From NCBI GenBank assembly GCA_018648645.1, contig JABGQS010000012.1, positions 1 to 64,000 of the forward strand: a stretch of 64,000 nt of DNA. Reading direction: 5' to 3'. The position numbers were made by a program, and so were the translations under genes. Origin of the DNA: Clostridia bacterium. Lineage in GTDB: Bacteria > Bacillota > Clostridia > Christensenellales > SZUA-584. Under the pieces are notes generated by a model, which was not told the DNA's origin, ran no database searches, and saw only the letters and a program-made list of their open reading frames with translations. The stretch's first letter is position 1; every line of letters begins with the position of its first letter. Shown here piece after piece: positions 20,845 to 24,804 of the stretch.

Positions 20845-22032
20845 CTATTCGCTCGAAGTCCCGTTAAACTTCAGCTTTAGGTTAACAGCAGCCATGACCA
20901 GCATCAACCCGCCGAGTATTGCGAATGTATACCTCATCCCAATCAAATCTGACACAAACCCGAACGCAGGGAAAAGAAGTATCATTACCAAACTGAACAT
21001 CAAACTCTCAAACGACAGTATCGTTGCCCGCTGCTCGCTGCCAATTGTCTTGTTGATGTAATCCCTCGTCGCCACGAATATAATTGCCTCAGCGAAGTTC
21101 ATGATGCAAAACGGTATCAGCGCGAACTTCGTAAAATACAGCAGCACAATGGTAATTGCGATAATCACCGGTGCCACTTTCAATATTAACTTCTCGCCAA
21201 ACCTTTTCTCCAGCCACGCCGCAACCAGAGCGCCAAGCGCCGCCGCCAGCGCAGACGCAGCCAAATATATCCCAATGGTCAGCGTGCTCAGCTCTCCATC
21301 CTTCCACGCAAGCTGCATATAGAAAAACGTCAGCGTCACGCTCGCGCAGAAAACGGCCGTCAGCAATATCAAATACGTAAGCCGACTGCTGCCTCTAATG
21401 GCTTTGAAGCTGTCCACATACTGCTTCTTCATAGCTCGCCCCAGACCAACCTTTTCCTTTGCCTGCGCCATCTTAGGCTCTTTGAAAAACAACCCCACAC
21501 CAATGCTAATTACGCTCAGCGCGATGGCGAGGTAATACACGTAAGCGTACTGTATGTTGCCGATTGCTCCGCCGATGATGAGCGCGATAATGCTGGTCGC
21601 CTGGTACACAACCTCAGTGCGTCCGGCAATTTTCATATACCTGCTCTGCTTATTTTCGAGCAGCAGCGAATCGTACACCAGCGCCTCGTTCGCGCCCGAC
21701 TCAAAGTTGTACGACAACGCCGTCACAACAAAGCTGATTGCGAACCCAAGAAAACTGTTCGACGTAATCATCAGCACGCTCGCCAACACTGCCAACACCA
21801 CGCCAATCAGTCGGCTTGTCTTCCGCCCGAATATATCGGCAATCGCTCCGGTCGGCGTCTCCATTAATAGCGATGTTGCGTGAAAGATTCCCTCCAGCAG
21901 CCCAATTTCAAACAATGAGAGCCCTTTGGACGCCAAATACAGCATCCAAATTCCCTGCGTTACATTCAGGCTCTTTGTAAACGTGAACAAATAATTCACA
22001 TATATATTTTTATAGTAGTTAAACTTTTTCAT
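20845..22032 (-). CDS. MFS exporter under a possible attenuator
   Basis: A 395-residue major facilitator transporter with about 12 helices. The loop after helix 2 carries ETPTGAIADIFGRKTSRLIG, and the N terminus (NYYKNIYVNYLFTFTKSLNVTQGIW) resembles many Firmicute MFS proteins annotated as efflux pumps. The substrate is unknown. GGAGGACATC precedes the ATG at 22032. The gene is preceded by a 240-base leader with a consensus promoter, a 43-codon open frame and a strong hairpin terminator. This arrangement is common for antibiotic-induced resistance genes, hence the inference that it is a drug exporter. Confidence 0.8.
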   Translation of the reverse strand: MKKFNYYKNIYVNYLFTFTKSLNVTQGIWMLYLASKGLSLFEIGLLEGIFHATSLLMETPTGAIADIFGRKTSRLIGVVLAVLASVLMITSNSFLGFAISFVVTALSYNFESGANEALVYDSLLLENKQSRYMKIAGRTEVVYQATSIIALIIGGAIGNIQYAYVYYLAIALSVISIGVGLFFKEPKMAQAKEKVGLGRAMKKQYVDSFKAIRGSSRLTYLILLTAVFCASVTLTFFYMQLAWKDGELSTLTIGIYLAASALAAALGALVAAWLEKRFGEKLILKVAPVIIAITIVLLYFTKFALIPFCIMNFAEAIIFVATRDYINKTIGSEQRATILSFESLMFSLVMILLFPAFGFVSDLIGMRYTFAILGGLMLVMAAVNLKLKFNGTSSE

Positions 22033-22082
22033 GATGTCCTCCGTTGCTTAGTCCCTAGCTGTCACATCAATCACAAAGGATA

Positions 22083-22119
22083 TAAAAAAACTCCTATTGC
22101 ATATGCGCCATAGGAGTTT
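22083..22119 (-). terminator. Leader terminator (attenuator) 51 bases before the MFS gene
   Basis: A perfect 10-base inverted repeat: AAACTCCTAT (22088-22097) and ATAGGAGTTT (22110-22119) with a 12-base loop. On the minus strand the second arm runs into a T-run (complement of the A-run at 22084-22090). No other gene ends here, so it sits inside the 5' leader of the MFS transcript and is likely conditional. Confidence 0.75.
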
Positions 22120-22147
22120 AGAAGATAAACCGATTAAAACCTACAAG

Positions 22148-22279
22148 CTAACATAACAGCAAACAATACTCGTCGTTTTTGGGCAGACTTCTCCCGTGCA
22201 CCGCGTAAGTGCTGATTACTGCCGTCTTTAGAGCCAGCCATTTCAGCCGACTTTTCGGTTGTTCGCTTAAAGTTTTCAT
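22148..22279 (-). CDS. Possible 43-residue leader peptide of the MFS gene
   Basis: This is an open frame of 43 codons on the minus strand, beginning MKTLSEQPKSR and ending CLLLC followed by TAG. Its ATG is only seven bases after the promoter's -10 box, so the mRNA would be nearly leaderless and no ribosome site is visible. It ends about 30 bases before the attenuator hairpin, the usual position of a regulatory leader peptide. Translation is not proven; the frame may be a chance opening, but its position between promoter and terminator is suggestive. Confidence 0.4.
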   Translation of the reverse strand: MKTLSEQPKSRLKWLALKTAVISTYAVHGRSLPKNDEYCLLLC

Positions 22280-22286
22280 AGTCAGA

Positions 22287-22315
22287 ATTATAGCATTTGA
22301 TTTTCATAGTGTCAA
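22287..22315 (-). promoter_or_regulatory. Perfect consensus promoter of the MFS leader transcript
   Basis: On the minus strand TTGACA (complement of 22310-22315), 17-base spacer, TATAAT (complement of 22287-22292): both hexamers match sigma-A consensus exactly. It is divergent from the promoter at 22340-22368. Confidence 0.85.
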
Positions 22316-22339
22316 CCGGGAAAAATGCCTACAATATTC

Positions 22340-22368
22340 TTTACATCGCGCCTCAAATAAATTACAAT
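22340..22368 (+). promoter_or_regulatory. Sigma-A promoter of the acetyltransferase/asnS unit
   Basis: TTTACA (22340-22345), 17 bases, TACAAT (22363-22368), 26 bases before the ATG at 22395. Confidence 0.65.
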
Positions 22369-22394
22369 ATACATAAATGCATAAAGGAGCTATT

Positions 22395-22832
22395 ATGGAT
22401 AATATTATTGTAAAGTTAATCACGCACGGATCTAAAGAGTACGAAGCGGCCTTGCTGCTCCGGGACGAGATATTGCGCAAGCCAATCGGACTAAATATCA
22501 ACGACGAGGATTTAAGCGGCGAGGAAAACGACATCCATATCGGCGCTTTTGACGGCGAGGCTCTCGTCGGTATACTCGTCCTCACCAAAATCGACGAAGG
22601 TGAGATACAAATGCGACAGGTGGCGGTTGCGCTGCCATACCAAGGCACCGGTATCGGCAAGCATTTGGTCAACTTTTGCGAGCAGACATGTAAAGACGAA
22701 GGATACAAATGCATACGGCTGCACGCGCGCATCACGGCTGTAGAGTTCTATAAGTACATGGAATACACCGTCGTCGGCGACATGTTCAAAGAGGTTGGGA
22801 TTCCCCATTTGGAAATGGAAAAATATCTCTAG
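22395..22832 (+). CDS. GNAT-family N-acetyltransferase
   Basis: A 145-residue single GNAT domain. The acetyl-CoA-binding motif A is MRQVAVALPYQGTGIGKHLV (about residues 76-95, pattern Q/RxxGxG/A = QGTGIG). It is followed by RLHARITAVEFYKYMEY, the typical C-terminal strand and helix. Length and order fit the ElaA/PhnO-like group. It acetylates an unknown amine. The ATG at 22395 has AAAGGAGC upstream; an earlier in-frame ATG at 22377 overlaps this site. It is the first gene after its promoter, 56 bases ahead of asnS. Confidence 0.85.
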   Translation: MDNIIVKLITHGSKEYEAALLLRDEILRKPIGLNINDEDLSGEENDIHIGAFDGEALVGILVLTKIDEGEIQMRQVAVALPYQGTGIGKHLVNFCEQTCKDEGYKCIRLHARITAVEFYKYMEYTVVGDMFKEVGIPHLEMEKYL

Positions 22833-22888
22833 GGACGGGACTTAATCGCACGTAAACAACACGACACACAGACCAAAGGAAGTACACT

Positions 22889-24259
22889 ATGACAACAATA
22901 GAATTGCGCGAACTTTTCGCAGACGATACAAAATATTTAAACAAGCAAGTTTCACTGCTGGGTTGGATTCGAAACCACCGCAAGCAAAAAACGTTTGGCT
23001 TCATCGACTTTTTTGACGGCACTTGCTACCGCGCGCTCCAAGTCGTTTATGACGACAGGCTGGCAGATTTCGAGCAAATCAAAACACTGCACGTCGGCGC
23101 TTCCGTCAACGTCTCGGGTACTCTGGTAGTGTCGGGCGGCAAAACGCAAGGAGTCGAACTTGCGCTTAGCGAAGTCACGCTCATAGGCGACTGTCCCGAG
23201 GAATACCCGCTACAGCCAAAGCGTCACTCGCTAGAGTTCCTGCGAGAAATAGCATACCTGCGCCCTCGATCAAGGCTGTTCCAAGCTGTCTTTCGTTTGC
23301 GCAGCACGGCGTCATTCGCCATCCACAAATATTTCAACGACCGCGGCTACGTATACGTGCACACCCCGCTAATCACCGGCAACGATGCAGAAGGCGCGGG
23401 CAACACGTTCACAGTCACCGCGCTTGACGAGCTAAATATCGGCACCGACTTTGGCGAGGACTTCTTTGGCAAACACACGTCGCTCGCAGTCACAGGTCAG
23501 CTGGAGGCAGAGACTTTCGCAATGGCGTTCAAAAACGTGTACACCTTCGGACCCACTTTCCGCGCAGAAAACTCAAACACAAAAACGCACGTGGCAGAGT
23601 TTTGGATGATCGAGCCTGAAATCGCGTTCTGCGACTTGCAGCAGCTTATGGACATCGAGGAAGACTTCCTGAAATACATTGTCAAATACATAATGGAGAA
23701 CGCTGCTGACGAGCTTGTGTTTCTCGAGATGTTCTCCAAGAGCAAGCTGAAGGATAAGCTCCAAGCACTCATCGACTCGGACATCGCCAGAATCACATAC
23801 AGAGAGGCCATCGACATTCTCTCAAATGCTGATGCAAAGTTCGATCACACCCCATACTTTGGCGGCGATCTGGCTAAAGAGCACGAGAAATACCTGACGG
23901 ACACCCACTTTGCTTCTCCGGTGTTCGTATACGACTGGCCAAAGGACATCAAAGCGTTCTACATGCACCAAAACGAAGACGACACCGTGGGCGCAGTCGA
24001 CCTTCTCGTACCCGGCGCGGGTGAGCTTATGGGCGGCAGCCAGCGCGAAACGCGATATGAAAAACTCTTCACCCGCATGAACGAAATGGAGATTTCCACA
24101 GAGGAAATGTACTGGTACCTAAACCTTCGCAAGTTCGGCAGCTGCGAGCACGCAGGCTTCGGCATGGGCTTCGAGCGCCTGCTAATCTACTTAACGGGCG
24201 TGGAGAACATCCGCGACGTCATTCCGTATCCCCGCACCCCGCAAAACTGCGAGTTCTAG
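22889..24259 (+). CDS. asnS: Asparaginyl-tRNA synthetase
   Basis: A 456-residue class IIb aminoacyl-tRNA synthetase. The N-terminal OB-fold anticodon domain (SLLGWIRNHRKQKTFGFIDFFDG) occupies about residues 20-110. Class II motifs follow: motif 2 FRAENSNTKTHVAEFWMIEPE and motif 3 GFGMGFERLLIYLTG near the C terminus. It charges tRNA-Asn with asparagine, so the cell need not rely only on transamidation. Length is normal. AAAGGAAG precedes the ATG, and a short unknown gene follows after 14 bases. Confidence 0.95.
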   Translation: MTTIELRELFADDTKYLNKQVSLLGWIRNHRKQKTFGFIDFFDGTCYRALQVVYDDRLADFEQIKTLHVGASVNVSGTLVVSGGKTQGVELALSEVTLIGDCPEEYPLQPKRHSLEFLREIAYLRPRSRLFQAVFRLRSTASFAIHKYFNDRGYVYVHTPLITGNDAEGAGNTFTVTALDELNIGTDFGEDFFGKHTSLAVTGQLEAETFAMAFKNVYTFGPTFRAENSNTKTHVAEFWMIEPEIAFCDLQQLMDIEEDFLKYIVKYIMENAADELVFLEMFSKSKLKDKLQALIDSDIARITYREAIDILSNADAKFDHTPYFGGDLAKEHEKYLTDTHFASPVFVYDWPKDIKAFYMHQNEDDTVGAVDLLVPGAGELMGGSQRETRYEKLFTRMNEMEISTEEMYWYLNLRKFGSCEHAGFGMGFERLLIYLTGVENIRDVIPYPRTPQNCEF

Positions 24260-24273
24260 AATCGGAGAGTGTT

Positions 24274-24804
24274 ATGAAACAGAAACTAAAAGATGTAATT
24301 GCTTTTCTGGAGCTATTGGAGGAGAAGAAAATTGTTTTTGAATTAGATAAAATTCGGGACAGTATTTGCATTGTAGCTTACGTACCGCGGCAAATTTGGG
24401 AAATAGAATATATGAGCAACGGTGCGATTGAAATTGAAAAATTTATAAGCGACGGTCAAATATTCGATGAAACAGAGATTGATGCTTTATTCCGCGAATT
24501 TTCTGAGTGCGGGAAAAGTTACTCTCTAAGTCAAAAGGCAATTCAAAATAGAACAAAAGAGAAAAACATGTATACAAGCGAAGAGTTTTTTGGACTCCTA
24601 AAGGAACTATCTGAAAATTTACTATATTATGAATTTAGAAGAATCAAAACAGAGCAATGTATTCTTGTGGAAGTGATTGTTCCGGGTCAAAGATGGGAAA
24701 TAAAGTATTTGCCTGATGGCGCAGTTGAAATTGAAAAGTTTATGACAACAATAACGATACTTGATGAAAAGGAAATCCCCAACTTATTTAAACATTTATC
24801 GTAG
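24274..24804 (+). CDS. Unknown protein made of two tandem copies of one domain
   Basis: A 176-residue soluble protein that I do not recognise. It is an internal duplication: residues about 1-78 and 98-176 align, each with a first helix, a strand with VxPRQ/GQxWEI, then the diagnostic xNGAIEIEKF or PDGAVEIEKF, then an acidic DETEIDALF or DEKEIPNLF ending. A methionine preceded by an A-rich, weakly ribosome-site-like stretch starts the second copy, as if two genes had fused. The DNA is clearly more A+T-rich than asnS and the EamA gene on either side, which suggests later acquisition. The function is unknown. Confidence 0.7.
   Translation: MKQKLKDVIAFLELLEEKKIVFELDKIRDSICIVAYVPRQIWEIEYMSNGAIEIEKFISDGQIFDETEIDALFREFSECGKSYSLSQKAIQNRTKEKNMYTSEEFFGLLKELSENLLYYEFRRIKTEQCILVEVIVPGQRWEIKYLPDGAVEIEKFMTTITILDEKEIPNLFKHLS

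Follow-up and report, generated by a model that had tools for sequence, protein, structure and literature searches.

Organisation of the locus

The 64-kb window (the whole stretch of 64,000 nucleotides analysed here) carries on its minus strand a gene for a predicted MFS exporter, preceded by a leader that contains a promoter, a small open reading frame (ORF) and an intrinsic terminator (Table 1). On the plus strand, a GNAT acetyltransferase gene (22377-22832) is divergent from the leader and shares a common intergenic region with it, and a 176-aa ORF of two similar halves, with no Pfam match, occupies 24274-24804.

Table 1 Features of the leader and the MFS gene in the window
Feature	Position	Strand	Basis or remark
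Sigma-A type promoter, TTGACA-17-TATAAT, extended -10 TG	22287..22315	-	Consensus scan, 12/12 bases
Leader ORF, 43 codons (MKTLSEQPKSRLKWLALKTAVISTYAVHGRSLPKNDEYCLLLC), near-leaderless start	22148..22279	-	ORF list; UAG 22150-22148
Region 1, leader ORF start, partner of region 2	22260..22276	-	Duplex energy; permutation in relatives
Family motif GGGAGAAGTCTGCCC (GGGRNNAGTNYGYCC)	22181..22195	-	12/12 fixed letters in the window
Region 2, leader ORF end including UAG 22150-22148	22136..22161	-	Pairs with region 1 via 22153-22136, or with region 3 via 22161-22140
Region 3, terminator 5′ arm AAACTCCTAT (22119-22110) and loop (22109-22098)	22098..22119	-	Antiterminator partner, 22114-22098
Region 4, terminator 3′ arm ATAGGAGTTT	22088..22097	-	Hairpin pairing
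Intrinsic terminator T-run, seven Ts	22084..22090	-	Sequence
MFS gene Shine-Dalgarno, GGAGG	22038..22042	-	Sequence
Predicted MFS exporter gene, 395 aa	20845..22032	-	Pfam MFS_1, 8e-33; ATG 22032

An earlier note on this DNA had described a perfect sigma-A promoter, a near-leaderless frame of 43 codons, a 10-base perfect hairpin with a T-run at which no gene ends, and an MFS gene with a ribosome site of its own 51 nt past the T-run; each of these features was recovered. Scanning 21000-24500 for consensus promoters returned the site ahead of the leader ORF as the sole 12/12 match, and between the terminator and the MFS start the same scan detected no second promoter-like site. The ATG of the leader ORF lies 8 nt past the -10 hexamer. 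Because of the usual distance from promoter to start, we place the RNA start near this ATG; the 5′ end of the leader RNA is probably at the start codon or 1-2 bases from it, making the frame near-leaderless or leaderless.

The terminator, situated between the leader ORF and the MFS gene, is a perfect 10-bp hairpin with a 12-nt loop that spans 22119-22084 with its T-run. Its energy is -14.1 kcal/mol; when the leader was shuffled with dinucleotides preserved, 3 of 300 sequences matched or exceeded this stability. No gene-size ORF in the ORF list stops at this hairpin. The leader as a whole folded no more stably than random expectation (z = -0.64 over 249 nt and -1.87 over 200 nt), which is not an argument against a switch.

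The MFS protein fell under every NCBIfam cut-off (H+ antiporter TIGR00900, 1.6e-12; Tet(40), 1e-6; TetA(P), 2e-6), and we therefore assign it no substrate. Homologues were absent at E 1e-20 from four other genomes of its family and present in 12 other genomes of the order (E 1e-25) and, across a sample of the class, in 32 other genomes (E 1e-28). A scan of named genomes gave eight MFS loci, including Clostridia and Bacillota MAGs, and a scan of viral contigs found no relatives. Searching 100 relatives with the leader DNA yielded matches at chance level only, the locus having diverged.

Leader frame and RNA motif in relatives

We examined 45 regions upstream of homologous MFS genes. The motif GGGRNNAGUNYGYCC, counted when at least 10 of its 12 fixed letters matched, was present in 35 of them, the window included. 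The 64-kb window contains one match against 0 expected, which is also the only match in the whole genome. In relatives, a short leader frame contains the motif or ends just ahead of it, and a terminator lies downstream. The leaders form two groups. In most leaders of the sister group (16 leaders, L027-L035 and L087-L097), the terminator 3′ arm contains AAGGAG, followed by the T-run and then by the MFS ATG; because this arm holds the MFS Shine-Dalgarno, the terminator can stop transcription and initiation alike. The Shine-Dalgarno of the window's group (the window, L024-L026 and L063-L082) is separate from the terminator.

The window's leader peptide agrees with those of relatives in length and in a GRS-(L/V/M)-(P/S)-K segment. 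The leader could be aligned in six relatives; of their 137 single-base codon changes, 68 were synonymous, compared with an expected proportion of 0.23. Therefore the peptide, or at least the frame, appears to be selected, and by this measure the leader frame in relatives is under purifying selection. Most relatives' frames have a Shine-Dalgarno; the leaderless start in the window differs from these and makes translation of its ORF less certain. Codons 9-13 of the window's peptide (22255-22241, minus strand) read K-S-R-L-K, two overlapping +x+ motifs of the macrolide-arrest type. A conserved +x+ arrest motif as in Mef/Erm leaders was not found, as K-S-R-L-K occurs in the window only and is absent from the relatives' leader peptides; nor did we find any shared arrest motif among these peptides, which differ between the two groups.

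The motif is kept in L063, L064, L082 and L027 although the reading frame through it differs, so it is selected as RNA or DNA also. Its codons have fixed third letters (GGG, AGT).

In the window-type leaders L063, L064, L068 and L070-L082, the motif is located in the loop of a hairpin, AUUUUGGA ... UCCAAAAU (UUUUUGA/UCAAAAA in L074), and the string UAUUAUGUAAAC directly after it is nearly invariant. The antiterminator described below explains neither.

Alternative pairings and the proposed switch

We compared the duplex energies of each leader's own antiterminator-arm pair with those of pairs permuted among leaders; such tests assume exchangeable sequences and take no account of phylogeny. In the sister group, pairing of the motif with the terminator 5′ arm gave -19.2 for own pairs versus -14.6 for permuted ones (0 of 100,000 permutations), five of the relatives' terminators having been set by hand for this test, and L035 reached 13 contiguous pairs. 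In the window's group, the same pairing failed the permutation (p about 0.23). We therefore dropped the motif as antiterminator there, which leaves part of its conservation in this group unexplained. It was replaced by a pairing termed X:C′ (2:3), in which the loop and the 3′ half of the arm are bound by a stretch of leader lying between motif and terminator.

Across 15 window-type leaders, X:C′ gave -7.39 for own pairs versus -5.30 for permuted ones (1 of 100,000), with search regions set by rule to no more than the 60 nt preceding the arm; the pairing had first been spotted by eye in the same leaders and the terminators of this group were entered by hand, either of which could favour the hypothesis somewhat. 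Dropping near-duplicates gave 23 of 100,000 and dropping the window gave 14 of 100,000, and composition-matched shuffles of each arm reached the observed value in 0 of 2000 trials for the full set and 2 of 2000 for the reduced set. The competing pairing of the same segment with the ORF start (1:2) was likewise supported in window-type relatives (permutation, 33 of 100,000; second test, 0 of 600). The leaders can thus form three mutually exclusive pairings, 1:2, 2:3 and 3:4, the last being the terminator, with statistical support in relatives.

In the window itself, the 1:2 duplex (-13.3 kcal/mol) was reached by 164 of 5000 shuffles. The 2:3 duplex (-12.2 for the isolated segment) was reached by 600 of 5000 and is not unusual taken alone, so the case for an antiterminator that excludes the terminator rests on the group. 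RNA ending at 22098 and including region 1 folds as 1:2, leaving region 3 unbound by region 2. When the RNA begins at 22258, without region 1, and the 3′ arm has not yet been made, 2:3 appears in the minimum-energy fold. If the RNA begins at 22240, some of region 2 pairs preferentially with other parts of the ORF, so that only certain ribosome positions favour the antiterminator. A switch requires competing structures of similar energy, and 2:3 (-12.2) and 3:4 (-14.1) differ little.

We propose, with a probability of about 0.77 and on sequence evidence, that the leader is a ribosome-mediated transcription attenuator of the predicted exporter. In the absence of a ribosome, region 1 would pair with region 2 and the terminator would form. 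A ribosome completing the leader would cover region 2, because the leader stop codon lies within it, and again the terminator would form. A ribosome held on the first codons would instead mask region 1 and free region 2 to capture the terminator 5′ arm and loop, and RNA polymerase would then read through into the MFS gene. Most likely, then, an early ribosome stall turns the switch on and the pump is made. In nature, induction is probably due to a translation inhibitor that is itself exported by the pump.

This is the attenuator-type reading of the earlier note, now supported by the promoter, the leader frame, the terminator and the antiterminator pairings in relatives. That note had suggested looking in relatives for pairing between an antiterminator and the terminator arm, which the permutation and composition-matched tests support, and had made its reading depend on conservation of the hairpin and leader frame; frame, motif and terminator do recur before homologous MFS genes.

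Selection on the motif at the RNA level, seen in its fixed third letters and its persistence in L063/L064, L082 and L027 despite the change of frame, would also suit a ligand-binding riboswitch, in which the terminator would be controlled by direct binding of a metabolite or drug to motif and hairpin, with the ORF incidental. The same holds for the role of the motif in the window's group, for which the antiterminator does not account. We nevertheless consider a riboswitch unlikely, given that the ORF is under apparent purifying selection, is preceded by a Shine-Dalgarno in most relatives and supplies with its start one of the switching arms. Moreover, little conserved aptamer-like structure was seen beyond the motif hairpin and one invariant string, and the leader had no match in Rfam 15 at the gathering score (best sub-threshold E 0.44).

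The perfect promoter and the closed terminator bound a unit of about 195 nt whose peptide is conserved in part, as would be expected of an independent small RNA or small-protein gene from which the MFS gene is reached by leak-through. This unit, however, directly precedes homologous MFS genes in distant families, its terminator arm has supported alternative partners, and in many relatives the terminator 3′ arm contains the MFS Shine-Dalgarno; here, moreover, the consensus scan placed no promoter between the terminator and the MFS gene. The unit is neither 6S RNA (RF00013), the genome's single 6S gene being on another contig, nor any other Rfam RNA, and we regard this explanation as very improbable. 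Attenuation by an amino acid or by general translation speed, in which slow leader codons rather than a drug would set the switch, shares the 1:2/2:3/3:4 logic with amino-acid operons (trp/ilv-like) but is hardly credible for a leader ORF that lacks a run of one codon kind and precedes a predicted exporter, not a biosynthetic gene.

Known attenuators and the extent of the family

Ribosome-mediated attenuation as proposed for the window is a kind of regulation already known from mefA, tet(M) and cplR; this leader family is without an Rfam model. In the mefA-msrD macrolide efflux operon (leader peptides MefAL and MsrDL), a leader ORF and an intrinsic terminator likewise precede an MFS exporter, and a stalled ribosome causes antitermination (PMC10314930), as we suggest for the window. 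MefAL is MTASMRLR, with a macrolide-arrest +x+ motif (PMC10314930), whereas the window's leader has 43 codons, its K-S-R-L-K is not conserved in relatives and its RNA motif is another. The cplR leader of Clostridioides difficile combines a uORF, a terminator and an antiterminator, blocking transcription and initiation together (PMC10201436). The window's family shares these parts, and the sister-group terminators, whose 3′ arm contains the gene's Shine-Dalgarno, resemble it further; in contrast, the uORF of cplR encodes just the tripeptide MRI and its gene product is an ABC-F ATPase (PMC10201436) rather than an MFS protein, and the window's Shine-Dalgarno is separate, about 40 nt past the T-run.

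The earlier note had also held that known attenuators before resistance genes have the same order of parts. This order is seen in the Tn916-type tet(M) leader, pCF10 copy (L036), with a promoter, short ORFs, terminator-like hairpins and the resistance gene, which differs from the window's in encoding a ribosomal protection protein. Transcription attenuation of tet(M) was reported by Su et al. 1992, as cited in PMC5418344. Comparison by eye found no sequence relation between the two leaders. For the leaderless start, a parallel is offered by the leaderless polycysteine attenuator ORFs of mycobacteria (Canestrari 2020, as cited in PMC13236596), which also use a leaderless small ORF as attenuator, the role proposed in the window, but reportedly sense cysteine and belong to a different phylum.

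A broader claim, to which we give even odds, is that these leaders constitute an undescribed Clostridia-wide family of ribosome-sensing attenuators, marked by GGGRNNAGUNYGYCC and regulating exporters of one MFS group as well as at least one ABC-2 permease. Its two groups would follow the same plan with different antiterminators, and the window copy would have shifted to leaderless initiation. A literature search covering few subscription papers found no description of the family, which points only weakly to novelty. If true, the claim would imply that a family of so far uncharacterised exporters in gut and environmental Clostridia can be induced, probably by translation inhibitors; the motif would be a sequence tag for finding more such leaders, and from the leaderless copy one could learn whether the mode of initiation alters the range of drugs sensed.

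The consensus RNA polymerase pause has the form GG ... YG. The motif resembles it; as the sister group's motif is accounted for by antiterminator pairing, we keep the resemblance as no more than an idea. A consensus pause sequence has been described (PMC6336406).

At L042 (1376-1606, reverse strand), the motif (GGGAGAAGTCTGCCCTTTTTGGG) lies inside a leader frame ending ARDGRSLPFLGSARA, with flanks GCGCGTG/CACGCGC, and the gene that follows encodes an ABC-2 family permease (Pfam PF06182), not an MFS protein. Further pattern matches, L037-L040 and L043-L045, were excluded as look-alike terminator arms before other genes. In L037-L040, a terminator-like hairpin whose 3′ arm has the same sequence stands at the very beginning of a transcript apparently coding for an L7Ae-like protein and ribosomal protein S12; this hairpin is possibly a separate attenuator.
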